DNA from: Phycisphaerales bacterium
GTDB taxonomy: Bacteria; Planctomycetota; Phycisphaerae; Phycisphaerales; UBA1924
Assembly: GCA_022843045.1 (NCBI GenBank)
Contig: JALHOJ010000002.1
Coordinates: 1 to 64,000, forward strand
Reading direction: 5' to 3'
DNA: 64,000 nt
Shown here one piece after another: positions 7,864 through 24,063 of the stretch (position 1 is the first letter of the stretch; every line of letters begins with the position of its first letter). The position numbers were made by a program, and so were the translations under genes. The notes below the pieces were generated by a model. It worked only from the letters and a program-made list of their open reading frames with translations, did no database searches and was not told the DNA's origin.

Positions 7864-8568
7864 TTAGAACAGCAGGTTGGGGCGTTCACGCATCAGCAGG
7901 CCCAGCTTTTCGAGGCGGATGCGCATCGCCTCGGCGGACACTTCAAACCGCTCTGCGAGCGGCTTTGCGAACTGTTCGAGCGTCGCGCTGGCTGGGTCGC
8001 GTCCGGCGCTGGCCCGCGCTGGGGGAAGATCCTGAAGGATGACCGCATCGAGGTTGCCACGCCACTCTTCCCAGGCAGCGACCACGAGGCGCTTGGGCAT
8101 CAGGAGGTAACTGGCAAACATGTCGGCCTGCCACTCCTCAGGCGGCTTGTCGCTCGAGCGGCATACGAACGCAGGTTGTCCGCGGCCGTCGAAGAGCGCG
8201 GCTTGGGCTGGATCTTTGCGGTAGTACGTGCGGTGCAGCCGCCAATGGCCGATCTCGTGCGCCACCGTGAACCGATAGCGGCCAAGCCGCGCCGGGTTGT
8301 CGGAAGGATCAAGCTGGGAGTCGATCCGTACCAACTTGTCGTCGAACCAGATCGCGCCCAGCACACTGTCGGTGCCAAAGAGCGCCGCAAGGTCCTCGAT
8401 CGCGAACGTCAACCCTAAGTGAAGCTCCAGGATGTCCTCGACGGGGATCGGCGCGGCTACCGGCTGGCCGACTCGGTGGCCATACTCGGCAATGAGGGCA
8501 TCGGCATCTCGCTCGATGCGAACTTCCGGGACGAACGGCACACTTGAGATGGCCCCGCGAACGCTCAA
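7864..8568 (-). CDS. ImmA/IrrE-type metalloprotease
   Basis: 234 aa. The zinc protease motif HEIGHW sits in VAHEIGHWRLH near residue 97, with a downstream ADMFASYLLMP segment, both typical of the ImmA/IrrE (DUF955) family. These proteases cleave a partner repressor when the cell senses DNA damage or a mobile-element signal. The start is a TTG (8568) forming a TTGA overlap with the stop of the upstream XRE gene; GGAGG lies 10 nt before it. The gene pair arrangement, repressor first and protease second, matches the ImmR/ImmA switch of integrative elements and some toxin-antitoxin-like modules. Confidence 0.88.
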   Translation of the reverse strand: MSVRGAISSVPFVPEVRIERDADALIAEYGHRVGQPVAAPIPVEDILELHLGLTFAIEDLAALFGTDSVLGAIWFDDKLVRIDSQLDPSDNPARLGRYRFTVAHEIGHWRLHRTYYRKDPAQAALFDGRGQPAFVCRSSDKPPEEWQADMFASYLLMPKRLVVAAWEEWRGNLDAVILQDLPPARASAGRDPASATLEQFAKPLAERFEVSAEAMRIRLEKLGLLMRERPNLLF

Positions 8569-8933
8569 GACCGATCAACCTCCATGCGCAGCTTTGCGGC
8601 GTGATCTTGCAGCTTCTTGAGTTGCTCAGGCGTGAGGCCCTTCAGGGCACGCAGCAGGGCGGGCATCGCTTCGGGTTGGCTCTGGATGATCTTCGGGAGA
8701 TCTTCGGGCACACGCCCGGCAAGGGCGAACAGTTCATCAGCGCTCGTGCCCAGGAGATCTGCCATCTTCTGAATGCGATCCGCGGTCGGGGGCGAGTCTA
8801 CCTTTCCCTGTTCAACGTGGGAGAGGTAGGTCGGGCTGACCCCCACGAGCTCCGCGAACCGACGCAGGCTGTAGCCTTTGGCGGTGCGACGCTCGCGAAG
8901 GAAGGCACCGAACTTTGGCTTAGGGGCGGTCAT
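8565..8933 (-). CDS. XRE-family helix-turn-helix regulator
   Basis: 122 aa. An HTH_3 domain occupies roughly residues 5-65 (FGAFLRERRTAKGYSLRRFA ... VSPTYLSHVEQGK), followed by a helical tail (LKGLTPEQLKKLQDHAAKL). An ATG 45 bp further upstream at 8978 is in frame, but it lies between a strong -35 and -10, so it would not be in the mRNA; ATG 8933 fits a leader of about 24 nt. No good ribosome site is visible at either. It probably represses its own promoter and perhaps the divergent defence operon, and is probably the substrate of the ImmA protease encoded next. Confidence 0.85.
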   Translation of the reverse strand: MTAPKPKFGAFLRERRTAKGYSLRRFAELVGVSPTYLSHVEQGKVDSPPTADRIQKMADLLGTSADELFALAGRVPEDLPKIIQSQPEAMPALLRALKGLTPEQLKKLQDHAAKLRMEVDRS

Positions 8934-8963
8934 GAGGGATGGAAGTCTGCCTGTCCCCTGTTT

Positions 8964-8992
8964 ACTATACGTGGACATAACCGGCGGGTCAA
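8964..8992 (-). promoter_or_regulatory. Sigma-70 promoter of the XRE-ImmA operon
   Basis: On the minus strand, TTGACC (8992-8987) is followed after exactly 17 bp by TATAGT (8969-8964). An imperfect palindrome with GTT...AAC ends overlaps the spacer and -10 and is a candidate operator for the XRE protein. Read directly from sequence; activity is inferred. Confidence 0.7.
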
Positions 8993-9212
8993 ACTGCTTC
9001 TTCAGCGGCGAGATTGGCGAAGAACCGAGAAAATGAACGTTTGCCCAAATGCTCCCAACTCTTTCACTCCAAGAACCCGCGGTAGTAGATCAAGCGCGAA
9101 ACTTGAGTTTCTCGATTATGCGGCCGGGATCGAACGCTAAACCGACGTGTCTCGATATGGGGCGCGATTTCGGGAGCGTGACGCGACCTCGCCTAGTCAC
9201 TCGGAGGGCTGT

Positions 9213-12200
9213 GTGAGAGTCGTCCCCAACACCGGAAATGATCGCGTTTTTGACGCTGTGCAGCGATGTGCACCTGGCGTTGCACAACTCGATTTCGCTT
9301 CAGCGCAGCTATCTGTGTTCGCCCTTAGCGAGCTCGTAGCTTTGATGAGCGAAATGCGGGCAATGAGAGCCATCATTCCAGCACAGTCGCAGCCCGCCGA
9401 GCTTCTGGGAGACGATGCCGACCGCAGCCGGCGGAACCGCTTCGAGACTCCGTTTCTGGCGAGGACGCTCGCGGACACGATCGAGAAGGTATCTGCTGTT
9501 AGGCAAGCTCCGAAAGGTGTTCCACAGGGCGCGTTGGTCGCGAGGCTTGGCAGCAATGAGCCCGCGCAGGCGATTCTCGGCGCGTTCTCTATCAGCAGTC
9601 CCGGCCTCGGTTTGTCGCCGGGAAACCCGCTCAGTCTGATCCAGGCGTCCGAAAGCCCTGCTGAAGCTGCGATGATCGCGCAATGGTTCGACCTGCAGTG
9701 GGCCTCGTTGGGGGCCGACGGTACCGCCAAGAGCGACCTCATTTCGCTGCTTCGTCGGATCTGCCAGCATCGGGATCCGCTGGGCGTCTATGCGGTAATG
9801 TTGCACCATCTGCTAGGCAGCCGGGGGGACGCGCTCGACGAAGACCGCGTCGTCAACGCCGCAACTGGTATTCGGAAGACCATCATCTGGAAGAAGCTCT
9901 ACAAGTTCCAGCGAGATGGTGTCGTCGGAGCGATCGACAAGCTGAACCGGTTCGGCGGCTGCATCATCGCCGACAGCGTTGGTCTTGGAAAGACATTTGA
10001 AGCTCTCGCAGTGATCAAGTACCACGAGCTGCGAAACGATCGTGTCCTGGTTTTGTGCCCAAAGCGCCTTCGCGACAACTGGACGCTCTATGCCACGAAC
10101 GATCGCCGAAACATCCTCGCAGCAGATCGCTTCAACTACGACGTGCTGAACCACACCGACCTTTCGCGCGATGGCGGCACGTCGGGCGACATCGATCTCG
10201 GGAACGTCAACTGGGGCAACTACGACCTCGTCGTCATCGACGAGTCGCACAACTTCCGCAACAAGAAGAGTCCTCGCCAGGGCGGAATGACGCGATATGA
10301 CCGCCTGATGAAGCAAATCATCAAGGAAGGTGTCCGAACCCGCGTTCTGATGCTCTCGGCAACGCCCGTGAACAACCGTCTCGCCGACTTGCGCAATCAG
10401 ATCGCCTTCGCGACTGAAGGCGACGATACGGCGCTCGCCGACCACGGCATCTCGAGCATCGACTCCACCACCCGCATGGCCCAGAAGCAGTTCAACCGCT
10501 GGCTCGAACTCGATGCAGTGGACCGCACGCCTGGCCGTTTGGTGGAAATGCTGGGCTTCGACTACTTCAAGCTGCTCGATTTGCTCACCATCGCTCGCTC
10601 GCGCAAGCACATCGAGAAGTACTACGGCACGAGTGAAACAGGTCGCTTTCCCGACCGGCGTAAGCCAATCAACGTCAAGGCCGACATTGACACCGCGGGC
10701 GAGTTTCGCTCCATCCGCGAACTCAACCAGGAGATACGTCGGCTAAACCTCTCGGCGTATGCGCCGCTGCGATACGTTCTTGCTCACAAGCAGGAAGCCT
10801 ACGACCGAAAGTACAGCACAGAGGTGTCGGGCGGCAAGGGATACTGGCGGCAGGTCGACCGCGAAGAGAGCTTGATACAACTGCTCCGCGTCAACGTGCT
10901 CAAGCGCCTGGAGAGTTCGGTGAACTCGTTTGCCCTGACCGTTCATCGACAGTTGCACGATGTCGAGGCGATGCTCGCTCGCATCGATGCCAAAGGTGAA
11001 GAGGTCGAAGAGGTCAGCATCGAGGACGTGGACATCGACGACTCCGCATTCGAGAGCTTGCTTGTTGGCCGGAAGGTCAAGGTTCTGCTGTCTGACGTTG
11101 ACTTGGTGCGATGGCGGCAGGATCTCATCGAGGACCGCAATCGCCTGTCCACCCTCGCGTCGGTAGCGAGGCTTGTATCGGCTGAGCGTGACGCCAAGCT
11201 TGTCAAGCTCAAGGAGTTCATCCTCGCAAAGTGCGGGGAGCCCTTCAATGCTGGCAACCGTAAGGTCCTGCTTTTCACGGCGTTCGCGGACACGGCGGAT
11301 TACCTCTACCAGCATCTCGCTCCCTGGGCGAAGCAGACACTGGGCGTCGACTCCGCCGTTGTCACCGGAACGGGTCGCAACCAGACCACTCTGCCATCAA
11401 TTCGCAAGGACTTCGTATCGATCCTCACAGCGTTCTCCCCGCGTTCAAAGGAGCGCCCCGAGGATCTCACCAACGAAGGCACGATCGACCTGCTCATCGG
11501 TACCGACTGCATTTCTGAAGGGCAAAACCTCCAGGATTGCGATTGTGTCATCAACTACGACATCCACTGGAACCCTGTCCGCATCATCCAGCGGTTTGGC
11601 CGAATTGATCGCCTGGGATCGTCCAACGCCCAAATCCAGTTGGTCAATTTCTGGCCCAACATGCAGCTGGAGGAGTACATCAACCTCGAGCAGCGGGTGA
11701 GCGGTCGAATGGTCTTGCTCGACGTCTCCGCGACAGGCGAGGAGAATCTGATCGAGGCAGATTCTGGTAACATGATGCGAGACTTGGAGTACCGCCGCGC
11801 CCAGCTATTGAAGCTCCAGGACGCCGTCATCGATCTTGAGGACCTCTCCACCGGGGTCAGCATTGCGGACCTAACTCTAACGGACTTCCGCATCGATCTC
11901 GCTGAGTACAGCCGAGAGCACCCCGACCGCCTCGAGACCGAGCCTCCTGGTACATTCGCGGTCACGACCTCGTCGGACGCCGATATTGAGCCTGGCATTA
12001 TCTTCTGTCTTCGCGCGGAAGGCGACGCCGCGAAAGCGACCCCCGAGCCCGGTTATCCACTCGCTCCGCACTACTTGGTTCACGTTGGCGACAATGGGAC
12101 CGTTCTCGTCCCCTACACGCGGGCTAAGCAGATTCTCGACCGCCTCAAGCGGCTGTGTATCGGCAAGTCGATCCCAGACGCCGAGGCAAGCAACCGCTTT

Positions 12201-12443
12201 GACCGCCAGACGCGAATGGGCAAAGACATGGACCACGCGCGGACACAATTCGCTAGCGCCGCAACGTCCATCATCGGCAAGAACGACGAACGAGCCATCG
12301 CCAGTCTGTTCACGCCCGGCGGTACCCACGTCCGCCGGGGCGAAGTCGCGGGTATCGATGATTTTGAAGTCTTGGCATTCCTGGTCGTGCTACCCGCGTC
12401 GCGCGATTCCGCTGCATCCCACGCTGTGGAGGCGAATGCGTGA
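9213..12443 (+). CDS. SNF2-like superfamily 2 helicase of the defence operon
   Basis: 1,076 aa from GTG 9213. An N-terminal stretch (residues about 8-45, RVFDAVQRCAPGVAQLDFAS) resembles the start of PLD-like domains found on such helicases, but no HKD motif is visible. Helicase motifs follow: Walker A SVGLGKT, DESH box in VVIDESHNFRNKK, LSATPVNNR, then C-terminal GTDCISEGQNLQ and IIQRFGRIDRLGS. A helical insertion lies between the two RecA lobes. GTG 9213 is preferred over GTG 9147 because CGGAGG lies at good spacing before it. The stop overlaps the next gene's start (GTGA). Probably an ATP-driven translocase that supports restriction. Confidence 0.88.
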   Translation: MRVVPNTGNDRVFDAVQRCAPGVAQLDFASAQLSVFALSELVALMSEMRAMRAIIPAQSQPAELLGDDADRSRRNRFETPFLARTLADTIEKVSAVRQAPKGVPQGALVARLGSNEPAQAILGAFSISSPGLGLSPGNPLSLIQASESPAEAAMIAQWFDLQWASLGADGTAKSDLISLLRRICQHRDPLGVYAVMLHHLLGSRGDALDEDRVVNAATGIRKTIIWKKLYKFQRDGVVGAIDKLNRFGGCIIADSVGLGKTFEALAVIKYHELRNDRVLVLCPKRLRDNWTLYATNDRRNILAADRFNYDVLNHTDLSRDGGTSGDIDLGNVNWGNYDLVVIDESHNFRNKKSPRQGGMTRYDRLMKQIIKEGVRTRVLMLSATPVNNRLADLRNQIAFATEGDDTALADHGISSIDSTTRMAQKQFNRWLELDAVDRTPGRLVEMLGFDYFKLLDLLTIARSRKHIEKYYGTSETGRFPDRRKPINVKADIDTAGEFRSIRELNQEIRRLNLSAYAPLRYVLAHKQEAYDRKYSTEVSGGKGYWRQVDREESLIQLLRVNVLKRLESSVNSFALTVHRQLHDVEAMLARIDAKGEEVEEVSIEDVDIDDSAFESLLVGRKVKVLLSDVDLVRWRQDLIEDRNRLSTLASVARLVSAERDAKLVKLKEFILAKCGEPFNAGNRKVLLFTAFADTADYLYQHLAPWAKQTLGVDSAVVTGTGRNQTTLPSIRKDFVSILTAFSPRSKERPEDLTNEGTIDLLIGTDCISEGQNLQDCDCVINYDIHWNPVRIIQRFGRIDRLGSSNAQIQLVNFWPNMQLEEYINLEQRVSGRMVLLDVSATGEENLIEADSGNMMRDLEYRRAQLLKLQDAVIDLEDLSTGVSIADLTLTDFRIDLAEYSREHPDRLETEPPGTFAVTTSSDADIEPGIIFCLRAEGDAAKATPEPGYPLAPHYLVHVGDNGTVLVPYTRAKQILDRLKRLCIGKSIPDAEASNRFDRQTRMGKDMDHARTQFASAATSIIGKNDERAIASLFTPGGTHVRRGEVAGIDDFEVLAFLVVLPASRDSAASHAVEANA

Positions 12444-13207
12444 CGGTAACCGGGACCCAACAGGTGATCGACGCTTTGGGGCTGCCAGCCGCGGCGCTCG
12501 TCGGACAGCGCGTCCCCAAGACCCTGCTGGTCGAGCACGGTGCGCCCACCGTCGCCGACAAGCGCCTTGTGGAGGCCGGCATCGAGGAGCTTCGGTGGGT
12601 TGCAAGCCTCAAACCCAACACGATCGGCGTCGCCGCCTTTGAGGATTCGGTCCGCCAGTGCGTGGAGCTCATCGTCCTCGCGCTGTCGCTCCGCCCTGAT
12701 GCCAAGCCCGCTCGCCTGCTCGAGCTTGTCCATCGAGCGGTCCCCTATCACGTCCTCCTGATCGTCAACCAATCCGTGAGCTCACCGGTCCTCAGCGGCG
12801 CTGACAAGCGATGGTCGCAGGGCGAATCCGGGAGAGTGGTGCTCGATGGAAACATCGTGACTACCCACCTGTCGGCCGCCACGCAGCCAGCCGTCGACGC
12901 GCTGCTCGGCACGCTCGCCGTGCCGCGCCGGCCCCACCCAAACCTCTACACGCTGTACCGCTCATGGCTCGACGCGCTGCTGGCGGCCGAAGCCGCCCTT
13001 ACGACCGGCGTGTTCACGGAATCCGGATCCACCGAACATTCCGCCGCGCGAGAAGCGGCACTCGCCGAGTGCGCTGATCTCGACAAACAAATCAAATCGC
13101 TCCGCACTGCCGCAGCCAAAGAGCGACAGATGGCCCGCCAGGTCGATCTCAACCTCCAACTCCGGCAACTGCAAGCACGATACGACGAGGCTCGTAAGCG
13201 GCTTTGA
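12440..13207 (+). CDS. DUF4391 protein
   Basis: 255 aa. It matches the DUF4391 pattern: an ELRWVASLKPNTIGV strand near residue 50, an ELIVLAL helix, a YHVLLIVNQ strand, and a long C-terminal coiled coil (AALAECADLDKQIKSLRTAA ... LRQLQARYDEARKRL). DUF4391 genes are known neighbours of SNF2-like helicases and type III-like Mod and Res genes. The biochemical role is not established; it may be an adaptor between helicase and methyltransferase. GTG at 12440 overlaps the helicase stop by 4 bp. The next gene starts 13 bp after its stop. Confidence 0.82.
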   Translation: MTVTGTQQVIDALGLPAAALVGQRVPKTLLVEHGAPTVADKRLVEAGIEELRWVASLKPNTIGVAAFEDSVRQCVELIVLALSLRPDAKPARLLELVHRAVPYHVLLIVNQSVSSPVLSGADKRWSQGESGRVVLDGNIVTTHLSAATQPAVDALLGTLAVPRRPHPNLYTLYRSWLDALLAAEAALTTGVFTESGSTEHSAAREAALAECADLDKQIKSLRTAAAKERQMARQVDLNLQLRQLQARYDEARKRL

Positions 13208-13220
13208 ACCAGGACTCTCC

Positions 13221-14900
13221 ATGAAGAACCAGAAACAGACAATCCGAAAGATCGTGGGGTTCCTGAACAACCCGGATGAAGAGGGCGGCTTCTGGCTTCC
13301 GAACATCCAACGCCCATTCGTGTGGAGCGAAGAGCAGATCTGCCGCCTCTTTGATTCGATCCTGCGTGAGTACCCGATCAGCACGCTGCTCATCTGGAAG
13401 ACGACCAGCGGAATTCGGCGGCGAAAGTTCATTGACAACTGGAAGGAATCCCTCCGCCTGAGCGATTACTACGTCCCGGAAGATTCCAGGAAAAAGTGCC
13501 TTGTGCTGGATGGGCAGCAGCGGCTGCAGAGCCTGTTCATCGGTCTCTGCGGCAGCTACGAGGGGCGGGAGCTCTACTTCGATATCCTCAGCGGCCAGCT
13601 CGCCGCGCCCGACGACGTCAAGTATCGCTTCAAGTTCATGCCCGCGGCCCCGGCTTTCCCGTGGGTCCGGTTCAAGGACTTGGTGTTCACGACTCAGCGA
13701 AAGAGCGACATCGCCCGCGACCTTCGCGATCGTCATGAAGTGAGTCATGCGGACTTGCAGAAACTGGAAGATCACCTCGACCTGGTCGATCGCACCCTCA
13801 AGATGGATGAGGCGATCACATACCAGGAGCTCGACAGCATCGACAACCCACAGCTGTACTCCGAGGACGATGTCGTAGAGGTGTTCATCCGCGCCAACTC
13901 TGGCGGCACGAAGCTCGGTAAGTCCGACTTGCTCTTCTCCCTGCTCAGCGCCACGTGGGAGGTCGCCGATGACCGCATGGAGGAGCTGCTCGGTTCGCTC
14001 AACACCCACGGCTTTGCCTTCGACCGCGACTTCGTCCTGAAGACGTGCTTGGTGTTGCTGGGGCAGGGCGCTCGTTACGAGGTCGAGAAGTTCCGCAAGC
14101 CCGGCGTGCGCGAGGACATCGAGCGCCGCTGGTACGAGATTGCGGGCGCGGTCCAGGATGTGCTCGACTTCGTGCGGAGCAAGACGTTCATCCAGTGTGA
14201 CAAGGCCCTGCCCAGCTACCAGGTGCTCATACCGCTGGTCTACGTCCGGTTCCACTACCACGACGAGTGGAAGCGTGCGGCCGGGCTCGATGAGTATTTG
14301 CTCCGCTGCTCCCTGGCCGCTTCATTCACGGGCCAGCCCGACACCGTCATCGACGGCCTCTGCCGGCGCTTCAAAGAGATCGGCAAGTTTGACCTCTCCG
14401 AGGCGTTCAAGGTCATCCGCACCGCCAATCGCCCGCTGGAGCTCACCGAGGAACGTCTCTGGCAGCTCGGCTATGGCTCGGATGCGATCCACCTGTTGTT
14501 CAACCTCTGGTACCGGGACTTCAACCACACGCCCGCGTACGAGAACAACCTGCCCCAGATCGACCACATCTTCCCGCAATCCGTCCTCGAAGCGATCCGC
14601 GATCCCAATCCCGACACCGGCAAGCGCAGCGTGATGCGCTACCGAAAGCCCGTCCGCGATCAGCTCGCCAACTGCATGTTGCTTACCCGAGAGGAGAACG
14701 GGGCCGGCGGCAAGGGCGACACCATGCCCGATGTCTGGTTCGCGGGCAAGAACGAGGCGTATCTTGACAGGCACATGATCCCCCGCGACAAGAATCTGTG
14801 GAAGCTGGATCGCTTCGATGACTTCATCGCCGCCCGCAAAGACCTGATCCGTGAGAAGTTCGCCCAGCTGCTGACCGCGCCCGGAGGCACCACCGCATGA
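13221..14900 (+). CDS. DUF262 + HNH single-chain GmrSD-like nuclease
   Basis: 559 aa. The N-terminal DUF262 (GmrS-like) domain has the usual signatures: IQRPFVWSEEQICRLFDSIL near residue 30 and LVLDGQQRLQSLF near residue 97. The C-terminus (about 450-500) carries an HNH/DUF1524-like site: QIDHIFPQS followed by LANCMLLTREEN and a lysine/glycine loop. GmrSD enzymes are NTP-dependent type IV nucleases that cut modified phage DNA. Here both parts are in one chain. The gene lies between the DUF4391 gene and mod, and its stop overlaps the mod start by ATGA, so it is produced with a modification enzyme rather than alone. Confidence 0.86.
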   Translation: MKNQKQTIRKIVGFLNNPDEEGGFWLPNIQRPFVWSEEQICRLFDSILREYPISTLLIWKTTSGIRRRKFIDNWKESLRLSDYYVPEDSRKKCLVLDGQQRLQSLFIGLCGSYEGRELYFDILSGQLAAPDDVKYRFKFMPAAPAFPWVRFKDLVFTTQRKSDIARDLRDRHEVSHADLQKLEDHLDLVDRTLKMDEAITYQELDSIDNPQLYSEDDVVEVFIRANSGGTKLGKSDLLFSLLSATWEVADDRMEELLGSLNTHGFAFDRDFVLKTCLVLLGQGARYEVEKFRKPGVREDIERRWYEIAGAVQDVLDFVRSKTFIQCDKALPSYQVLIPLVYVRFHYHDEWKRAAGLDEYLLRCSLAASFTGQPDTVIDGLCRRFKEIGKFDLSEAFKVIRTANRPLELTEERLWQLGYGSDAIHLLFNLWYRDFNHTPAYENNLPQIDHIFPQSVLEAIRDPNPDTGKRSVMRYRKPVRDQLANCMLLTREENGAGGKGDTMPDVWFAGKNEAYLDRHMIPRDKNLWKLDRFDDFIAARKDLIREKFAQLLTAPGGTTA

Positions 14901-16933
14901 GCACACCGACCATCCGCAAAATCACCGCCTCCGACCCGCTCGCCGCCTCCGCCGACGTTGTCGCGGAGAACATTGCCAAGCTCAAGGCCCTCTTCCCCGA
15001 GTTGGTGACCGAGGGGGAGAAGGGCGTTTCGGTGAATGTCGACGTGCTGAAACAGCTCGTCGGCGACGGGACGCTCACCGACGCAGAGGAGAAGTTCGGC
15101 CTCAACTGGCACGGCAAGCGGCAGGCCCGCCAGCTCGCGCTCACGCCCAGTACGGGGACGCTTCGCCCCTGCCCGGAAGAGAGTGTGGACTGGGATACCA
15201 CGCAGAACATCTTCATCGAGGGAGACAACCTGGAGGTGCTCAAACTGCTCCAAAAGTCGTACGCGGGTCAGGTGAAGCTCATCTACATCGATCCACCGTA
15301 CAACACGGGCAAGGACTTCGTGTACCCCGACGACTTTTCAGATGGCATCGGGAACTACCTCGCCCGGACAGGCCAGGTGGACAGCGAGGGACTGAAGAAG
15401 TCCAGCAACACGGAATCGTCGGGCCGGTTCCATACGTCATGGCTCAGCATGATCTTGCCACGAGTCCGGCTGGCTAGGTCATTGCTGAAGCCGGACGGTG
15501 CGATCTTTGTTTCCTGCGATGAAGCTGAACATCCGCGTCTCCGTTCGCTCATGGACGATGTATTCGGAGAAGAGAACTTCGTTGCCGACTTTGTCTGGGC
15601 AGCAGGTCGCAAGAACGATTCTCGACTGGTGTCGATATCACACGAGTACATCGTCTGCTATGCGCGGGACAGCGGCTATCTGAAGGCGGCAGAAATCGAG
15701 TGGCGTCAGCGAAAGAAGGGCCTCGAAGACATTTACTCACAGTACGACCGACTCAAGCGCCAGCACGGCAATGATTATGCTGCGATGACAGCTGCTCTGA
15801 AGGCGTGGTTCAAGGATTTGCCCGACAGCCACCCCGCGAGAGCACACAAGCACTACTCCCATGTCGATCACCGCGGCATCTACTTTCCGGACAACATCTC
15901 GTGGCCCGGCGGTGGAGGTCCTAAGTACGAGGTCTTGCATCCCCGCACTCGGCGTCCTGTAGCCGTGCCGTCCAGAGGATGGATGACGAGCGACCCGAAG
16001 AAGATGCAGGCGTGGATCGCTGACGAACGAGTGCACTTCGGCGAGGACGAATCGGCCGTGCCGTGTATCAAGTCATACCTGAAAGACCGAGAATACCAGG
16101 CCCCGTATAGCGTGTTCTACCAAGACGGCCGAGCGGCAACGAAACGGCTGCGGGAGTTGATGGGCACGGATTGCTTCGATTTCCCGAAGGACGAGCTCGT
16201 TCTGCAAGAGCTTGTGGGCATGATGACGGGCGAAGGCGACATCGTCATGGACTTCTTCGCAGGGTCCGGCACCACAGGTCACTCTGTAATGCTGCAGAAT
16301 CGTGAGGATGGTAAGCAACGTCGGTTCATTCTCGTTCAACTTCCCGAACCGCTCGACCCCGAGCATGCCGAGCAGGCTGAGGCGGCGGCATTCTGTGACA
16401 AACTCAGAAAACCCCGGAACATCGCCACGCTCACCAAAGAACGACTTAGACGGGCGGGCCGGGCTGTTGTCGATGGCCGTCTTGGTGCGGTAGACGTGGG
16501 GTATCGAACCTTCCGTCTCGATTACTCGTGCCTCCGGTTGTGGAACTCCGCGAAGTCGGTGACAACCGATCGGCTGGAGGCCTCTGTTGAACACATTGAG
16601 CCGGGACGGACATCAAGCGACCTTCTCAACGAGCTGTTGCTCAAGCGAGGCCTCGATCTCTGCGTACCTATCGAGACCAAGACAATTGCTGGCAAAGTGG
16701 TCCACTCGGTCGGTGCGGGATCGCTCATCGCGTGCCTCGATGCAGCGATTGCGAGAGAGAATGGAGAGGCCCTTGCACTGGGAATTGCCAAATGGCACAC
16801 GGAGCTGAACCCCGCCGGCGAGACCGCCGTCGTCTTCCGCGATGACGCGTTCGCTGACGATGTGGTGAAGACCAACGTCGTGGCGATTCTGGTGCAGCGT
16901 GGTTTTGACGAAGGCCGTATTCGCAGCCTGTAG
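14897..16933 (+). CDS. Type III-like DNA methyltransferase (Mod, beta class)
   Basis: 678 aa. Catalytic motif IV DPPYN is at residues 132-136 in KLIYIDPPYNTGKDF, and the SAM-binding FAGSGTTGHS comes later, near residue 455. That order marks a beta-class N6-adenine or N4-cytosine methyltransferase of the type III Mod family. The segment between them would be the target-recognition region. The C-terminal 180 residues are less conserved and probably contact Res. ATGA overlap with the DUF262 gene shows translational coupling. It presumably methylates one strand of an asymmetric site, protecting host DNA against the Res subunit encoded downstream. Symbol left blank as the specificity is unknown. 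Confidence 0.9.
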   Translation: MSTPTIRKITASDPLAASADVVAENIAKLKALFPELVTEGEKGVSVNVDVLKQLVGDGTLTDAEEKFGLNWHGKRQARQLALTPSTGTLRPCPEESVDWDTTQNIFIEGDNLEVLKLLQKSYAGQVKLIYIDPPYNTGKDFVYPDDFSDGIGNYLARTGQVDSEGLKKSSNTESSGRFHTSWLSMILPRVRLARSLLKPDGAIFVSCDEAEHPRLRSLMDDVFGEENFVADFVWAAGRKNDSRLVSISHEYIVCYARDSGYLKAAEIEWRQRKKGLEDIYSQYDRLKRQHGNDYAAMTAALKAWFKDLPDSHPARAHKHYSHVDHRGIYFPDNISWPGGGGPKYEVLHPRTRRPVAVPSRGWMTSDPKKMQAWIADERVHFGEDESAVPCIKSYLKDREYQAPYSVFYQDGRAATKRLRELMGTDCFDFPKDELVLQELVGMMTGEGDIVMDFFAGSGTTGHSVMLQNREDGKQRRFILVQLPEPLDPEHAEQAEAAAFCDKLRKPRNIATLTKERLRRAGRAVVDGRLGAVDVGYRTFRLDYSCLRLWNSAKSVTTDRLEASVEHIEPGRTSSDLLNELLLKRGLDLCVPIETKTIAGKVVHSVGAGSLIACLDAAIARENGEALALGIAKWHTELNPAGETAVVFRDDAFADDVVKTNVVAILVQRGFDEGRIRSL

Positions 16934-16986
16934 TGCCCTTACAAACCAAATCATCGAAGTACCGCAGTCGCCGTCCGGAGTTCATT

Positions 16987-17622
16987 ATGAGCCGCATCAC
17001 CATAAATCTCGAATACGTGCTGTGCTTGAATCAGCAGGGCCACTTTAACTACGCCATTCGAAGTCACCGTCGAGAGGGTGGCAGTCCCCGTTGGGTGATC
17101 GACACGAGCGGCGCTGCGGTCGTGTGGCGGCTCGAGAAGCTCACTGATGGGGTTCCGGAGGTTCCTGGTGGCGGCAGAGACCGTGTGGATCGAGTTGATT
17201 TCTACATCCTGCAACGCGACCTAAAGCCGCTGATCTCTACGTTCCCCCCCGCAGCAGCGCCTGCAGATAAGACCTTTAAGTTGCCCGTTACTGATTCGCG
17301 TGGTACTGAACGCCACGCCGGAAAGACCGTGCGCCCACTCGTCCAGATAGCCCGCTACTCGGGGATCACATCGTGCCATTGGGAGAACCATCGAACACCT
17401 CCCTTCTTTGCGGCTGTGACGACGAGTGCCGAGTTGCACGTTGATATCGAGCTCACACCTGAGAAGGAGTATGGGGCCGAACTGCCTGAGCTTCACTTCG
17501 GCATCTCCGGTCAGTATGTAGTGACCGGTATCGCTGGCGGCGGGGCCAGCTTCGTGGAGATCCGGATGCCTCATGAGCTCTACGCTCAGATTGTCGCGGA
17601 CCTTCGATGGAACCTTCGGTAG
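16987..17622 (+). CDS. Unrecognised 211-aa protein between mod and res
   Basis: 211 aa from ATG 16987, which has CCGGAG at good spacing; an in-frame GTG at 16933 overlaps the mod stop but has no ribosome site. No family recognised. It is beta-rich: ITINLEYVLCLNQQGHFNYA at the start, a VDFYILQRDL segment near residue 75, and ELHVDIELT, HFGISGQYVVTGI and SFVEIRMP strands near the end. There is no signal peptide, membrane segment or obvious catalytic motif. Location between methyltransferase and nuclease genes on the same strand implies a function in the same system, for instance specificity, inhibition or sensing; this is inference only. Confidence 0.7.
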   Translation: MSRITINLEYVLCLNQQGHFNYAIRSHRREGGSPRWVIDTSGAAVVWRLEKLTDGVPEVPGGGRDRVDRVDFYILQRDLKPLISTFPPAAAPADKTFKLPVTDSRGTERHAGKTVRPLVQIARYSGITSCHWENHRTPPFFAAVTTSAELHVDIELTPEKEYGAELPELHFGISGQYVVTGIAGGGASFVEIRMPHELYAQIVADLRWNLR

Positions 17623-17668
17623 TCAGAGGCATAGTGCACACCACATCGCCATCGGAGACTGAATCGCC

Positions 17669-20600
17669 GTGAAGCTCCACTTTGAACCAGACCTCGACTA
17701 TCAGCTGCGGGCCATCGAGTCCGTGTGCGACCTGTTCCGCGGCCAGGAGCTCTGCCGCACGGAGTTCACGGTCGTGCGTGATGTGGCCAACCCGCAGATG
17801 CGGCTGGGCTTCGCCGAGAGCGACCTGGGCGTCGGCAACCGCCTCACCCTGCTCGATGACGAGCTGCTGGAGAACTTGAAGGACGTCCAGCTTCGCAACG
17901 GGCTCGCGCCGGCGAGCACGCTCGCGTCTGGCGACTTCACGGTCGAAATGGAGACGGGTACGGGCAAGACGTACGTCTACCTCCGGTCCATCTTCGAGCT
18001 CAACAAGCGGTTCGGCTTCACCAAGTTCGTCATCATCGTGCCATCCGTCGCCATCAAGGAGGGCGTGTACCACTCGATCGACTCGATGGCCGAGCATTTC
18101 CGCGGGCTGTACGCGGGCGTGCCGTTCGACTACTTCCTGTACGACTCGTCGCGTATGGGCCAGGTGCGGAACTTCGCCACCAGCCCGCACATCCAGATCA
18201 TGGTGACGACCGTCGGCGCGATCAACAAGAAGGACGTGAACAACCTCTACAAGGACAGCGAGAAAACCGGCGGCGAGAAGCCGATCGACCTGATTAAGGC
18301 GACGCGTCCCATCCTTATAGTGGACGAGCCCCAGAGCGTCGACGGCGGCCTGAGCGGAGCGGGCAAGCTGGCCCTCGATGCCATGAACCCGCTGTGCACG
18401 CTGCGGTACTCGGCGACGCACGTGAACAAACACCACATGGTGTACCGGCTCGATGCCGTGGACGCGTACGAGCGGAAGCTGGTCAAGCAGATCGAAGTGG
18501 CCGCCGCCACGGTGGAGAGCGCCCACAACCGGCCGTTCGTGCGGCTCGTCGGCGTGCAGAATCGGCGGAACGTCATCTCCGCGAAGGTGGAATTGGACGT
18601 GGAAACGCTCCACGGCGTGGAGCGCAAGGAGGTTTTGGTTCAGGACGGCGATGACCTCGAGCAGACCACGCGCCGCGCGATGTATGCCAACTGCCGTGTC
18701 GGCGAGATTCGCGTAGCCGCGGGTCGCGAGCACATGGAGCTGCGCTACCCGGGCGGCGAGAAGTACCTGAAGCCCGGTGAGTCGTGGGGCGACGTCGACG
18801 GCGCGAGCATCCAGCGCGAGATGATCAAGCGGACCATCAAGGAGCACTTGGACAAGGAGAAGCGTCTCCGACCGCTCGGGATCAAGGTCCTCAGCCTGTT
18901 CTTCATCGACGAGGTGGCGAAGTACCGGCAGTACGACAAGGACGGCAACCCCGTGAAGGGCGAATATGCCAAGATCTTCGAGGAGGAGTACAAGCGCTGG
19001 GCCCGACATCCGGACTACGACACGCTCTTCAAAGAGGTCGACCTGTCGAAGGCTGCTGACGAGGTGCACGACGGCTATTTCTCCATCGACAAGCGCACCG
19101 GCCGAGCCGTGGACACCGAGGAGGGAAATCAGACTGGTCGCGACGCGGCTGAGAAGGCGTACAACCTGATCATGAAGGAGAAGGAGAAGCTGCTGAGCTT
19201 CTCGACGCCGCTGAAGTTCATCTTCTCGCACTCGGCGCTGAAGGAGGGCTGGGACAACCCCAACGTGTTCCAGATCTGCTCGCTCCGCGACATCCGCACC
19301 GAGCGAGAGCGCCGCCAGTCGATCGGTCGCGGGCTCCGGCTCTGCGTGAACCAGGACGGACAGCGCGTCCGCGGGTTCGAGGTCAACACGCTGACCGTGG
19401 TGGCCAACGAGAGCTACGAGGCGTTCGCCGACAACCTTCAGAAGGAAATCGAGGAGGACACCGGCATCCGGTTCGGCATCGTCGAGCAGCACCAGTTCTC
19501 GCAGGTCGCGACGGCGGGCACCGACGGCAAGGTCACAGTGCTCGGCGTCGAGCAGTCGAAGGCCGTCTGGGAGCACCTCAAGGCGAAGGGGTACATTGAC
19601 GCTCGCGGCAAGGTGCAGGATGCGCTGCGTCAGGCGATCAAGAACAAGACGGTCGAACTGCCCGTTGCGATTGTCGGCGAGGCGGGGCAGAAGGACCAGG
19701 TCGTGGAGATCCTGCGCAAGCTTGCGGGCAAGCTGGAGATCAAGAACGCCGATGACCGGAAGCCGATCACGGTCCGCCGCGCCGTGCTGGATAGTGAGCA
19801 GTTCAAGCAGCTTTGGGCCCGTATCCGGGACAAGACCACGTATCGCGTCAACTTCGACAACGATAAGCTAATCGCCGATGCCAGCAAGGCGATCGAGGAG
19901 GCACCGCCGATCGCGCGGACTCGGTTGCAGTGGCGGAAGGCCGACGTTGCGATCGGCCGCGGCGGCGTCCAAGCCACGGAGTCCGGTGATTCGTCCGTCG
20001 TCGTCCTCAACGAAGCGGATATCGAGCTTCCTGACATCCTCACGGATCTGCAGGATCGCACACGCCTCACCCGCAGGAGCATCGCCAAGATTCTGATTGA
20101 CAGCGGACGACTAGACGAGTTCTCACGCAATCCCCAGGAGTTCATCGAACTGGCCGCTGACGCGATCAATCGATGCAAACGATTGGCGCTGGTGGACGGC
20201 ATCAAGTACCAGCGCCTTGGCAATGAGTTCTACTACGCCCAAGAGCTCTACGAGAACAAGGAGCTGACCGGGTATCTGCGGAACATGCTGGCGGCCTCAA
20301 AGGCCCCGTACGAACACGTCGTGTACGACTCCGACGTCGAGAAGTCGTTCGCTCAAGAGCTTGAACGGAACACCGCGATCAAGGTCTACGCGAAGCTGCC
20401 CGGGTGGTTCACAGTGCCCACCCCGCTTGGACCGTACAACCCCGACTGGGCGGTTCTCGTACAGCAGGACGGGGAAGAGCGTTTGTACTTCGTCGTAGAG
20501 ACCAAACCATCGGCCTTGCTGTTCGACGATGCTCGGAGAGTCTCAGAGAACGCAAAGATCCAGTGCGGCAAGGCTCACTTCAAAGCAATTGCAACCGACG

Positions 20601-20683
20601 CCAATCCTGCACAGTTTATTGTCGCCGAATCGATCGATGATGTGTTTCGGCATTCAACACATACTTCGCCACCTAGAAATTGA
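17669..20683 (+). CDS. Type III-like restriction subunit (Res): helicase plus PD-(D/E)XK nuclease
   Basis: 1,004 aa, the usual size for Res. It opens with a Q-like DYQLRAIESV, then Walker A METGTGKT near residue 95, DEPQ box (ILIVDEPQSVDG) near residue 215, and motif VI QSIGRGLRLCVN near 550. The C-terminus has a PD-ExK nuclease site: YNPDWAVL near residue 923 and VVETK near 945. Start is GTG 17669 with CGGAG upstream. Together with Mod it would translocate along or scan DNA and cut unmethylated sites. The gene ends 15 bp from the convergent HTH gene, so the operon closes here. Confidence 0.9.
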   Translation: MKLHFEPDLDYQLRAIESVCDLFRGQELCRTEFTVVRDVANPQMRLGFAESDLGVGNRLTLLDDELLENLKDVQLRNGLAPASTLASGDFTVEMETGTGKTYVYLRSIFELNKRFGFTKFVIIVPSVAIKEGVYHSIDSMAEHFRGLYAGVPFDYFLYDSSRMGQVRNFATSPHIQIMVTTVGAINKKDVNNLYKDSEKTGGEKPIDLIKATRPILIVDEPQSVDGGLSGAGKLALDAMNPLCTLRYSATHVNKHHMVYRLDAVDAYERKLVKQIEVAAATVESAHNRPFVRLVGVQNRRNVISAKVELDVETLHGVERKEVLVQDGDDLEQTTRRAMYANCRVGEIRVAAGREHMELRYPGGEKYLKPGESWGDVDGASIQREMIKRTIKEHLDKEKRLRPLGIKVLSLFFIDEVAKYRQYDKDGNPVKGEYAKIFEEEYKRWARHPDYDTLFKEVDLSKAADEVHDGYFSIDKRTGRAVDTEEGNQTGRDAAEKAYNLIMKEKEKLLSFSTPLKFIFSHSALKEGWDNPNVFQICSLRDIRTERERRQSIGRGLRLCVNQDGQRVRGFEVNTLTVVANESYEAFADNLQKEIEEDTGIRFGIVEQHQFSQVATAGTDGKVTVLGVEQSKAVWEHLKAKGYIDARGKVQDALRQAIKNKTVELPVAIVGEAGQKDQVVEILRKLAGKLEIKNADDRKPITVRRAVLDSEQFKQLWARIRDKTTYRVNFDNDKLIADASKAIEEAPPIARTRLQWRKADVAIGRGGVQATESGDSSVVVLNEADIELPDILTDLQDRTRLTRRSIAKILIDSGRLDEFSRNPQEFIELAADAINRCKRLALVDGIKYQRLGNEFYYAQELYENKELTGYLRNMLAASKAPYEHVVYDSDVEKSFAQELERNTAIKVYAKLPGWFTVPTPLGPYNPDWAVLVQQDGEERLYFVVETKPSALLFDDARRVSENAKIQCGKAHFKAIATDANPAQFIVAESIDDVFRHSTHTSPPRN

Positions 20684-20698
20684 TGGGACAATTGCTGC

Positions 20699-21082
20699 TC
20701 AAAGTGCTAGCCAGGCGGCTCGCTGCTGACTCCAAGAGGCGGTGGCGGCAATTGGCCGAAGATCACGCTCGGTGATCGCGTCACGGCCCTTCGAGGACGC
20801 GGGAAGATACAAGATCTGTTCCTGAATATCCGGCGCAAGATGCAGCAGGTTCATAATCTGCGTCATACGCGGCTGTGTGACCCGGCACAGGCGGGCAAGC
20901 TCGGAAAGGTCCGCAACGACACCCTTCTGGATGAGCCGGTCGTACTTGATCGCCAGGGCCATCAGGCGGGCTACGCGGGGCACACGGCCCGGCAGTTCGG
21001 CTTTGGGGGCCTCTGGTCCAAGCACAACGCGCTTGCGGCGGGCTTTCCGAGTGATATGGATGGTCCGGACAACGGTTGTCAA
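20699..21082 (-). CDS. Small HTH protein coupled to the recombinase
   Basis: 127 aa if it starts at TTG 21082. That TTG forms a TTGA overlap with the recombinase stop and is preceded by TGGAGGAA, a strong ribosome site; an ATG at 21109 would add 9 residues. The middle (ADLSELARLCRVTQPRMTQI) is a clear helix-turn-helix, and basic residues dominate the N-terminus (TRKARRKRV). Similar small genes follow serine recombinase genes in related elements. It may be a recombination directionality factor or a regulator, but this cannot be decided from sequence. It resembles the HTH part of KorB/ParB proteins only loosely. Confidence 0.72.
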   Translation of the reverse strand: MTTVVRTIHITRKARRKRVVLGPEAPKAELPGRVPRVARLMALAIKYDRLIQKGVVADLSELARLCRVTQPRMTQIMNLLHLAPDIQEQILYLPASSKGRDAITERDLRPIAATASWSQQRAAWLAL

Positions 21083-22677
21083 GCTGCTTCCTCCAGTCGA
21101 CGGGTACACAGGGCGGCGATGCCGGTTGCTCGGAACGTCACTGCGACTGTTGATTTCTCCGAGTCGAACTCGACATTTGACAACAGCAACTTCAGCACGC
21201 GAGCCTGCTCTCGAGGTGACAATTGCGACCAGACGCCGTCGAATTCGCTGAGGGCTTTTCTGGCCTCTTCCCGTGAGATGGCCTTGGACCCGAGCACGCC
21301 CAGCCGGGTTTCGATTTCGGCAACGCGGTTGCGGGTTCCGCTGATCTGCTCGTGGATACTGGCCAGTCGGGCGGTGGTGGCCGCACTCCCGCTCTTGTCC
21401 GCGATGAGTTCCCTCAGCTCCTTCTCCATACGGCCGAGCGAGGCGTGGATCGATGCCCGCTCTGCCTTGAGCGCCGCGAGTTCCTCGTCCACGTTGACCA
21501 CTGCCTCAGCGAGAATGCGGTCGAGCAGCGCCCGGTCTTTGCCGAGCGAGCGGATCTCGTCGACGACCAACTTCTCGATCTCCAGCCCGGGCAGCGATGA
21601 CGCTCCGCAGGTGTGTGCTCCGTTCTTGATCGCCTCAAGGCACCTGTAGTAGCGGTACTGTTTGTTCCGCTTGCCGTAGAACGTGTGGATCATTGCGCAG
21701 TCGCACTTCTTGCACCGCATGAGCCCGCGTAGCAAGGCCCCGTACTTGTTGCGCATCTCAATACCGCCGGTTCGACCGTTCTCCGCGAGCTGCTGGCGGA
21801 CTCGCTCAAACAAGGCAACATCGACGATCGCCTCGTGCTCGCCGTCATAGGTGTTGCCCCGATGGACGATCTTGCCGGTCAGGAGCGGGTTGGTTAGAAG
21901 AACGTGCAGGCTGCCGGTGTTGAAAGGCTGGCCGCCGACGCTGTCGCCCTTCCGGGTTACTCGGCGCTTGTTCTTCCATTCGCGGTGCCTCAGCTCGGTC
22001 ACTGTTCGCTGAAGCGACCCTTTATCCAGATACATCTTGAAGATCTCGCGGACGCGGTGGGCTTCGCGGGGGTTGACCACCAAGCGGGGACTACCGCCGG
22101 AACGGTCCACGTCATAGCCCAGGATCGGCACGCCGCCCGCCCACTTGCCCCGACGCTTCTGGGCGGCGATCTTGTCGCGGATGCGCTCACCGATGATCTC
22201 GCGTTCGAACTGGGCGAACGACAACAGGATGTTGAGCGTCAGGCGGCCCATCGAGCTCGTGGTGTTGAACTGCTGCGTCACCGAGACGAACGACACGCCT
22301 TTGCGATCGAACGTCTCCATGATGCGAGCGAAGTCCATCAGAGAACGGCTCAACCTATCCACTTTGTAGACTACAACGCAGTCGATCTTCCCGGCCTCGA
22401 TGTCTTTCAGGAGCTGCTCCAACGCCGGTCGCTCCATGCTGCCGCCGGAGAAGCCGCCGTCGTCGTATCGATCCGGGAGGCACACCCACCCTTCGTTGCG
22501 CTGGCTGGCGATGTATGACTCCGCAGCCTCCCGCTGGGCGTCGAGCGAGTTGAACTCGAGTTCGAGCCCCTCCTCGCTGCTTTTGCGGGTATAGATCGCG
22601 CACCGGATCGGACCCGGAGATCGGTTGCCGCGGTCCCGTGACAGAGACGTGTTGGAAGATTGGCCGCGCTTGGTCAT
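21079..22677 (-). CDS. Large serine recombinase (integrase)
   Basis: 532 aa. The catalytic domain occupies roughly residues 23-170: AIYTRKSSEEG with nucleophile Ser33, then DDGGFSGGSMERPAL, YKVDRLSRS and ERIRDKIAAQ. A recombinase domain follows (GGVPILGYDVD...), then a zinc ribbon (CKKCDCAM ... YRCLEAIKNGAHTC) and a C-terminal coiled coil rich in Glu/Arg. These enzymes integrate and excise elements at short att sites with a 2-bp crossover core. The upstream DUF2924 gene and the downstream HTH gene both overlap it by start/stop codons, forming one operon. It is the best evidence that the left third of the window is a mobile element. Confidence 0.93.
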   Translation of the reverse strand: MTKRGQSSNTSLSRDRGNRSPGPIRCAIYTRKSSEEGLELEFNSLDAQREAAESYIASQRNEGWVCLPDRYDDGGFSGGSMERPALEQLLKDIEAGKIDCVVVYKVDRLSRSLMDFARIMETFDRKGVSFVSVTQQFNTTSSMGRLTLNILLSFAQFEREIIGERIRDKIAAQKRRGKWAGGVPILGYDVDRSGGSPRLVVNPREAHRVREIFKMYLDKGSLQRTVTELRHREWKNKRRVTRKGDSVGGQPFNTGSLHVLLTNPLLTGKIVHRGNTYDGEHEAIVDVALFERVRQQLAENGRTGGIEMRNKYGALLRGLMRCKKCDCAMIHTFYGKRNKQYRYYRCLEAIKNGAHTCGASSLPGLEIEKLVVDEIRSLGKDRALLDRILAEAVVNVDEELAALKAERASIHASLGRMEKELRELIADKSGSAATTARLASIHEQISGTRNRVAEIETRLGVLGSKAISREEARKALSEFDGVWSQLSPREQARVLKLLLSNVEFDSEKSTVAVTFRATGIAALCTRRLEEAA

Positions 22678-23189
22678 CGACCACCCCGCAATCCGAAGAA
22701 CCGGTAGCCGTTGATGTGCTGACCAGTCACTTTCTTGGCAACTACTGAGAGCGTGCCGTATCGCTCGCCGTCGAACTCGAAGCCCTCACCGTCTGCGAGC
22801 ACCATCACCCGGATCGTCCGACCCTTGTACTGACGGACGATCGCGGAACCGGGCGGGGGCAAACGTGGATCGCGGCTCTCGCGTTGATCGAGGGACCGCA
22901 CCGTCGTACGGATCTCACCGGGCTGGGGCGGGCAGGTGTACGAGCGAGGGGCCATCGTGCGGATTTCAGCGTCGTCGGCTAACTCGGCCGCCCGCCGCTT
23001 GGCTCGCTCGCTCAGATCGCCCTCCGCGTTGGCCTGGATACGCCAAGCGTTCTTGCGGATCAGATACGCACGGTGGCGAGTGCGACAGGCGTGGCCATGG
23101 ATTTCTTCGTAGAGATCGATCAGTTCACCGGTGGTCATGCGCTGCAGTTCGCTCAGTTGTCGTTCCATTGCGTCGGTCGTGGGGGACAT
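22674..23189 (-). CDS. DUF2924 protein
   Basis: 171 aa. The N-terminal helix (QLSELQRMTTGELIDLYEEI), a basic middle (RTRHRAYLIRKNAWRIQANA) and a C-terminal beta module (GSAIVRQYKGRTIRVMVLAD ... FEFDGERYGTLSVVAKKVTG) are characteristic of DUF2924. Members sit directly upstream of serine recombinase genes in many elements of planctomycetes and alphaproteobacteria, and are presumed to help recombination or DNA binding. Its stop overlaps the recombinase start by ATGA. No catalytic residues are apparent. Confidence 0.86.
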   Translation of the reverse strand: MSPTTDAMERQLSELQRMTTGELIDLYEEIHGHACRTRHRAYLIRKNAWRIQANAEGDLSERAKRRAAELADDAEIRTMAPRSYTCPPQPGEIRTTVRSLDQRESRDPRLPPPGSAIVRQYKGRTIRVMVLADGEGFEFDGERYGTLSVVAKKVTGQHINGYRFFGLRGGR

Positions 23190-23840: not shown

Positions 23841-23847
23841 TTGGAAA

Positions 23848-23921
<74 letters not shown>

Positions 23922-24063
23922 ATCAAAGCGGAATTAGTCGGTAGGATAGGGAAACCGGGCGCGAACGTCAAGTTTGAGCGTCAGTTTGCGCGGAAATGGG
24001 TGGCGTCGCGGTTGCTTCGTGGTGAAACCTGTGATCGCGCGACACACGATTCGCCCACCCCAA

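Follow-up and report, generated by a model that had tools for sequence, protein, structure and literature searches.

The window, that is, the whole stretch of DNA analysed (64,000 nt of a Phycisphaerales bacterium, assembly GCA_022843045.1, contig JALHOJ010000002.1, positions 1 to 64,000), carries on its plus strand at 9147–20683 a run of six genes for a SNF2 helicase, a DUF4391 protein, a DUF262-HNH nuclease, a type III Mod, an orphan protein and a type III Res. The initial annotation had addressed the DUF262-HNH/mod pair and omitted the larger operon of which it is part. The features are as follows:

9147–12443, plus strand: SNF2-type helicase, 1098 aa, core gene 1 (Pfam SNF2-rel_dom and Helicase_C; PADLOC C3a139)
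12440–13207, plus strand: DUF4391 protein, 255 aa, core gene 2 (Pfam PF14335, E 1.1e-59)
13221–14900, plus strand: predicted GmrSD/BrxU-type DUF262-HNH nuclease, 559 aa, cargo at junction A (DUF4391/Mod) (Pfam, PADLOC, phmmer, motifs)
14562–14699, plus strand: HNH active-site stretch of the nuclease with DHIFP (14562–14576), N484 (14670–14672) and N493 (14697–14699) (motif search; 7p9k alignment)
14897–14900, plus strand: ATGA, overlap of nuclease stop and mod start (sequence)
14897–16933, plus strand: type III Mod, 678 aa, core gene 3, DPPY before FAGSG (beta-class order) (Pfam, PADLOC, 4zcf match, motifs)
16933–17622, plus strand: orphan frame, 229 aa from GTG (or 211 aa from ATG at 16987), cargo at junction B (Mod/Res) (sequence; no family)
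17669–20683, plus strand: type III Res, 1004 aa, core gene 4, with GTGKT, DEPQ and a D-x(n)-ETK nuclease motif (Pfam, PADLOC, EcoP15I match, motifs)

The helicase and DUF4391 genes overlap by 4 nt, and 13 nt separate DUF4391 from the nuclease gene. The overlap of the nuclease stop with the mod start was found as described initially; of the accompanying claim that the two are translated together, the direct joining to mod stood, and a common transcript is suggested by relatives only. Overlaps of 4 nt are common in dense operons, and the ATGA alone is no evidence of joint function. The orphan frame matched no family in Pfam or PADLOC scans and no plasmid, and among 61 genomes it matched only itself; in the closely related locus L161 the Mod-Res gap at the corresponding place comprises only 23 nt. 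In the E. coli genomes searched, no near match to 12440–17622 was obtained.

Just upstream of the operon, a divergent pair encoding an HTH_31/HTH_3 regulator and a Peptidase_M78 (IrrE) protein (7864–8978, minus strand) is a possible switch for the operon or for a mobile element. On the other side lie a large serine recombinase gene followed by DUF2924 (21079–23189, minus strand), a pair that recurs in L036 (G035), where a further DUF262 gene and a distant Mod-like match lie nearby, and a tRNA-Met gene (23847–23922). A search of 4500–26000 for repeats as possible island marks gave four direct families of 18–33 nt, all imperfect and none of them located at the tRNA-Met gene.

The nuclease ORF starts with ATG and is free of internal stops. 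Its product scored above the curated Pfam cut-offs for GmrSD_N (E 1.7e-28, residues 15–242) and GmrSD_C (E 9.9e-9, residues 429–545; 35.6 bits versus a cut-off of 23), and matched PADLOC HEC-05 with E 7.2e-97; no further domain of any kind was found in the protein by Pfam. The DUF262 part contains QR, RLFDS (42–46), DGQQR (97–101) and FIRAN (222–226, FxxxN), and the DUF1524 His-Me/HNH pattern DH..N..N is represented by DHIFP (448–452, with D448 and H449), N484 and N493, so that the loss of catalytic residues considered in the initial annotation has not occurred. Both domains reside in one chain whose length agrees with the about 560–600 aa expected for the family. By phmmer, the protein aligned over residues 21–510 (E 4.6e-30) with the solved protein 7p9k, listed as 'DUF262 domain-containing protein', which we take to be BrxU (as also 7p9m). 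This assignment fits the motifs, RLFDS, DGQQR and DHIFP in the nuclease corresponding to RLFDS, DGQQR and DHIYP in BrxU (available part of PMC8565348). As judged from its sequence, the gene at 13221–14900 is thus an intact GmrSD/BrxU-type ORF of the BrxU/HEC-05 branch with nothing to suggest decay, in line with its initial description as GmrSD-like. A structure model built from 3 sequences was too poor to use (pLDDT 40.3). Six phage records matched the nuclease at 24.6–43.7% identity, the three covering most of the protein at 26.6–27.5%. The host assembly contains a second GmrSD_N protein (G000:C47:11459-11923; L002, L042), and no core-operon gene was matched in the 19 kb around it.

Mod, Res and the helicase are intact by motif. 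Mod was assigned to PADLOC MTase_III (E 2.3e-203) and Pfam N6_N4_Mtase and matched the EcoP15I Mod subunit (4zcf) with E 1.3e-75 over residues 23–522. As in beta-class type III enzymes, DPPY (at 132) precedes FAGSG (at 454), with the variable target region (about 200–440) between them. This order is that of EcoP15I-type adenine-N6 enzymes, and by it Mod is predicted to form N6-methyladenine. Res combines an SF2 helicase (Pfam ResIII; GTGKT, DEPQ) with a PD-(D/E)xK nuclease (RE_endonuc; D..ETK at 926), and its residues 58–597 match EcoP15I (4zcf). The helicase contains GLGKT and DESH. Its top PADLOC model was C3a139 'HKD+Snf2' (E 7.3e-111), with an alignment that starts only at profile position 161, and a pattern search revealed no H.K or HxK(x)4D motif in the protein, the part without HxK being its N-terminal half (window 9147–9800); the helicase therefore cannot be counted as a nuclease by the name of its model. 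By the same crude pattern, HxK is absent in 63 of the 69 helicases of the set, that of the window included.

Among known systems, EcoP15I (4zcf) is matched by both Mod and Res; it is known to consist of mod and res only, whereas the operon of the window adds the SNF2 helicase, DUF4391 and cargo. With BrxU, to which HEC-05 is equated in the accessible part of PMC11411939, the nuclease shares the single-chain DUF262-linker-HNH layout, the motifs RLFDS, DGQQR and DHI(F/Y)P and a defence locus beside an N6-adenine methyltransferase; it differs in that BrxU belongs to a BREX island and the present nuclease, with a predicted substrate, to an SNF2-DUF4391-type III operon. TgvAB from VPI-2 of Vibrio cholerae likewise comprises GmrSD-like genes inside a restriction-modification operon and is proposed to act against modified phages (PMC11411939, in part); there, two proteins are embedded in a type I operon, here a single one in a type III operon. 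GmrSD, OLD-TOPRIM and Schlafen auxiliary nucleases recur within or beside the cores of BREX and BREX-related systems (excerpts of PMC12839542), and all three were met here too, but around a type III Mod/Res core with DUF4391. For the six operon proteins, the matches listed included none to PglZ, BrxC or DUF499, and membership in BREX or BREX-related systems was rejected; the helicase matched BrxH models (1.7e-25) far below C3a139 (best 25 of its 46 matches). Hma loci are also helicase and methylase operons with embedded GmrSD cargo, HEC-05/HEC-06 (PMC11411939, in part). According to the available part of PMC8565338 they consist of three genes with an m5C methyltransferase, in contrast to the N6-adenine-type Mod and the Res of the window. 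Membership in Hma (helicase, m5C methyltransferase, ATPase) was rejected, as the methyltransferase is of the N6_N4_Mtase/MTase_III type, and among the PADLOC matches listed the helicase scored 4.9e-22 with HmaA versus 7.3e-111 with C3a139. An assignment to SspE was likewise rejected (PADLOC 6.8e-5 versus 7.2e-97 for HEC-05), and no Ssp modification gene was among the listed PADLOC matches of the six operon proteins (best 25 of 46 for the helicase, P0003, and best 25 of 41 for P0006).

The initial annotation had presented the neighbourhood as exceptional for such nucleases. The accessible parts of PMC8565348, PMC11411939 and PMC12839542 already describe GmrSD genes within or next to BREX, type I restriction-modification and Hma loci, so that an embedded nuclease is ordinary in kind. 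The newer part is the platform, a type III operon with SNF2 and DUF4391 in which three junctions vary. No description of such an operon with embedded cargo was found in the open-access papers searched, of which a single one names DUF4391; subscription papers, most bioRxiv preprints and the embedded-gene work cited in PMC11411939 lay outside the scope of this search.

Related loci were collected mainly with DUF4391 as anchor from six overlapping genome draws, two of which were centred on genomes from the nuclease search, and from plasmids (9 of 24 records read). The 83 loci comprise the window, four first met via the nuclease (L026, L028, L035, L161) and 78 obtained via DUF4391; 17 weak or partial DUF4391 places were left out. 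L028 and L035 were also recovered by the family DUF4391 search, L161 was not, and the genome of L026 entered the DUF4391 searches solely through the nuclease. An operon was scored as complete when SNF2, DUF4391, Mod and Res followed one another on the same strand, which was so in 70 of the 83 loci. The other 13 lacked one or more core genes, several of them ending at a contig end. In L180, L190, L191 and L199, DUF4391 occurred without any other core gene, and the core is thus not universal around DUF4391. In one copy, on an Acetobacter plasmid (L078), the Res match is split, and an IS1380 transposase is annotated between its halves.

A junction was taken as filled when more than 300 nt lay between alignment ends, a rule by which a frameshifted core gene can mimic filling and gaps slightly above 300 nt may contain no gene. 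Among the complete operons, junction A was filled in 25, B in 33, C (SNF2/DUF4391) in 6 and any of the three in 41; unfilled A junctions measured −46 to 95 nt. A GmrSD gene was located at A in 8 of 70 operons (window, L161, L026, L028, L208, L035, L204, L205), with at least three GmrSD types among them. The window, L161 and L026 were left out of the frequency estimate because they had been obtained through the nuclease, after which GmrSD remained at A in 5 of 67 operons and none was detected there in 62. Over all 83 loci, 13 had a GmrSD gene at a core junction, nine directly after DUF4391 (including L075, cut by a contig end), three between Mod and Res (L081, L171, L172) and one between SNF2 and DUF4391 (L163). 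Operons without DUF262 are thus the rule, the outcome named initially as the one that would speak against the implied DUF262-Mod coupling. That it indicates chance insertion, as was also stated, does not follow, because junction A is repeatedly filled by different defence-type genes (25/70).

For these fillings, 94 cargo frames (at least 130 aa before trimming) were collected; ten were dropped (six DUF262 genes already typed and four small or overlapping frames), and the remaining 84 mutually unrelated proteins, including the junction-B frame of the window, were each scanned. Five GmrSD_N matches emerged, all of which were traced (L205, L163, L081, L171, L172). Other junction-A cargo assigned by Pfam comprised Schlafen AlbA (L165, L173), SIR2 (L168), AAA with subtilase (L171), AAA_21 (L176), YhcG (L186), TIR (L192), DUF488, DUF4209 and MauJ (L202), PLD (L204, second gene) and OLD-TOPRIM with AAA (L206), and 11 of the 28 junction-A proteins scanned singly gave no Pfam family at E 0.001. 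At junction B, TIR, AbiEii, Macro, Abi_2, Fic, RhuM, Schlafen, DUF3800, UvrD, YhcG and AAA_15/21 were found. The commonest cargo families were RhuM and Schlafen (6/84 each), and PADLOC PDC-S05 was matched by six proteins. By script, the longest frame was co-directional with the operon in 23 of the 25 filled A junctions; the exceptions were L207, with small frames only, and the window, which was counted wrongly because its open frame extends back into DUF4391. Junction A is therefore an interchangeable slot for various defence genes.

The nuclease itself was matched in 15 of 101 genomes (its own and 100 relatives), and in two of the 14 others (G013, G023) the match lay in this operon. The closest relatives outside the operon are encoded on plasmids of Nostoc (54% identity) and Nitrosospira (49%), and the stretches read contained neither mod nor DUF4391, that of Nitrosospira beginning 3 kb before the gene at the start of the record. 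In a nuclease tree of 23 rows, the five window-type proteins of junction A formed a clade (94/97) within a larger one (100/99) that also took in the plasmid proteins of Nostoc and Nitrosospira. L035 and L204 fell elsewhere, among proteins without a core gene in their surroundings (L034, L038); L205 and L163 were on very long branches, and their placement is unsure. In an SNF2 tree (69 rows, quick method, LG+G4), the presence of GmrSD at A or C changed at least six times, the junction-B loci L081, L171 and L172 being labelled absent or uncounted. In this tree L026, with the window-type nuclease at A, is sister to L163, with a different GmrSD at C.

The window-type nuclease (68–94% identical) occupied this position in all five places where it was met (window, L161, L028, L026, L208), that is, in four genomes and one contig. 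The latter, L161, carries the same operon and is labelled viral in IMG/VR; it may be host or mobile-element DNA. The identities of each locus to the window, gene by gene, were:

L161: SNF2 91%, DUF4391 78%, nuclease 94%, Mod 74%, Res 95%
L028: SNF2 72%, DUF4391 50%, nuclease 74%, Mod 57%, Res 71%
L026: SNF2 67%, DUF4391 52%, nuclease 68%, Mod 44% (in two frames, best used), Res 68%
L208: SNF2 54%, DUF4391 32%, nuclease 69%, Mod 69%, Res 66%

In L208 the nuclease, Mod and Res are similar to those of the window but SNF2 and DUF4391 have diverged, which shows gene exchange at the DUF4391/nuclease junction. Between the window and L028, the Mod target region (40-residue windows) is only 12–45% identical while the nucleases share 74%; in L202, which has no GmrSD gene, the target region is 42–72% identical to that of the window. 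A target region that changes without the nuclease speaks against an enzyme tailored to a single recognition site. A nuclease reading N6-methyladenine in any sequence context would be compatible with this sequence comparison.

The initial annotation had seen a problem of self-attack in a modification-dependent nuclease beside a methyltransferase. According to the available parts of PMC12707154 and PMC11411939, GmrSD enzymes of tested function recognise modified DNA themselves. BrxU is active on m5C and glucosyl-hmC DNA independently of the adjoining BREX system (PMC12707154, in part), and a heading in the accessible part of PMC12409352 names a broad range of cytosine modifications. A BrxU plasmid, moreover, confers N6mA at GCTAAT in the same cells from the same island (excerpt of PMC8565348). 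Since GmrSD enzymes read modified cytosine and BrxU coexists with N6mA, a Mod with the adenine-N6 motif order creates no paradox; the puzzle appears weak and mostly dissolved. The likely answer is one that had been offered with the question, namely that the nuclease ignores the Mod mark because it would read cytosine and not adenine. The host assembly (91% complete, 3.7% contaminated) encodes one C5-cytosine methylase elsewhere (contig C35, E 2.7e-82); such an enzyme is also present in G1346, absent in G013 and represented by partial matches in G551. If the C35 methylase is active in the same cell, the nuclease should ignore 5mC, which would favour bulkier cytosine modifications as its target, although this is a hint only.

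The reading that we prefer, at a probability of roughly 0.7, is that the DUF262-HNH protein is interchangeable cargo of an SNF2-DUF4391-Mod-Res operon, namely a type IV enzyme of the BrxU/HEC-05 branch that works by itself and depends on NTP. It builds on the gene with its motifs, the operon, the variable filling, the exchange at the junction and the retention of the nuclease while the Mod target region changes. By analogy with the relatives, the enzyme would use NTP, act independently on modified cytosine and share a transcript with the core. The core would mark host DNA with the predicted N6-methyladenine at type III sites and attack unmarked DNA, and the embedded nuclease, carried between DUF4391 and mod and expressed along with the operon, would attack phage DNA with modified cytosines, which is often resistant to ordinary restriction. 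The nuclease is probably a mobile accessory, extending protection to phages that escape cutting by the main system. Some observations run against cargo. The constant position of the window-type nuclease in five of five places also fits a working partnership, nuclease and Mod stayed together in L208 despite the divergence of other core genes, as expected of a linked pair, an enzyme cutting every 5mC would endanger a host with the C35 methylase if that contig is the host's, and the four DUF4391-only loci show a core that is not universal around DUF4391.

At a low probability, the interpretation can be taken further. SNF2-DUF4391-Mod-Res may be a modular immune platform, as yet without a name, that accepts cargo at three fixed junctions. 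The cargo (GmrSD, Schlafen, TIR, SIR2, OLD-TOPRIM and others) would be licensed by the core: co-expressed, and set free or activated once the core detects an invader or loses control of it. In that scheme, GmrSD would deal with phages whose DNA modification protects them from the type III step.

Improbable, and far behind the cargo reading, is a coupled, SspE-like effector, in which DUF262 would sense the Mod mark, or its absence on phage DNA, and gate HNH, so that nuclease and Mod form one system. The same family includes SspE, which senses phosphorothioate (PMC11411939, in part). The close spacing of the two genes agrees with coupling: the nuclease stop is part of an ATGA in the window, L161 and L028, and in L026 and L208 an ATG follows it at a distance of 3 and 11 nt, respectively, the mod starts of the relatives being putative. 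So does the joint conservation of nuclease and Mod in L208. A coupled effector is, however, difficult to reconcile with its absence from junction A in 62 of 67 operons, with solitary close relatives, with unrelated genes in the same junction and with a PADLOC score for SspE far behind that for HEC-05. The shifting Mod target region also speaks against it, unless N6mA is read in any context.

A PrrC-style backup, by which the junction genes would watch over the core and be triggered once a phage inhibitor has blocked it, is slightly less likely again. Its precedent is PrrC in a type IC locus (accessible part of PMC12707154), and the junctions hold many suicide-type families (Schlafen, TIR, SIR2, Abi_2, Fic, AAA_21, OLD-TOPRIM). 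Against it, the functionally tested GmrSD enzymes recognise modified DNA themselves, as cited above, and the nuclease shows only DUF262 and HNH by Pfam. Chance insertion into a defence island, the exact position being without advantage, is the least plausible explanation: defence genes do gather in islands, absence of GmrSD from junction A is the rule and a serine recombinase pair lies nearby, but the core genes on either side of the cargo are mostly still open, the longest frame is co-directional by script in 23 of 25 filled A junctions, and several unlike GmrSD types have entered the operon.

Type I, BREX and Hma loci with embedded type IV and suicide-type genes have already been published, and the wider pattern found here is of moderate interest. 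If the junctions prove general, they would be a good place to seek defence genes not yet described: 11 of the 28 proteins scanned singly from junction A, and the 229-aa gene of the window, are without a family. For the GmrSD family, a nuclease of this type beside an N6-adenine methyltransferase would need no special protection if it reads cytosine.
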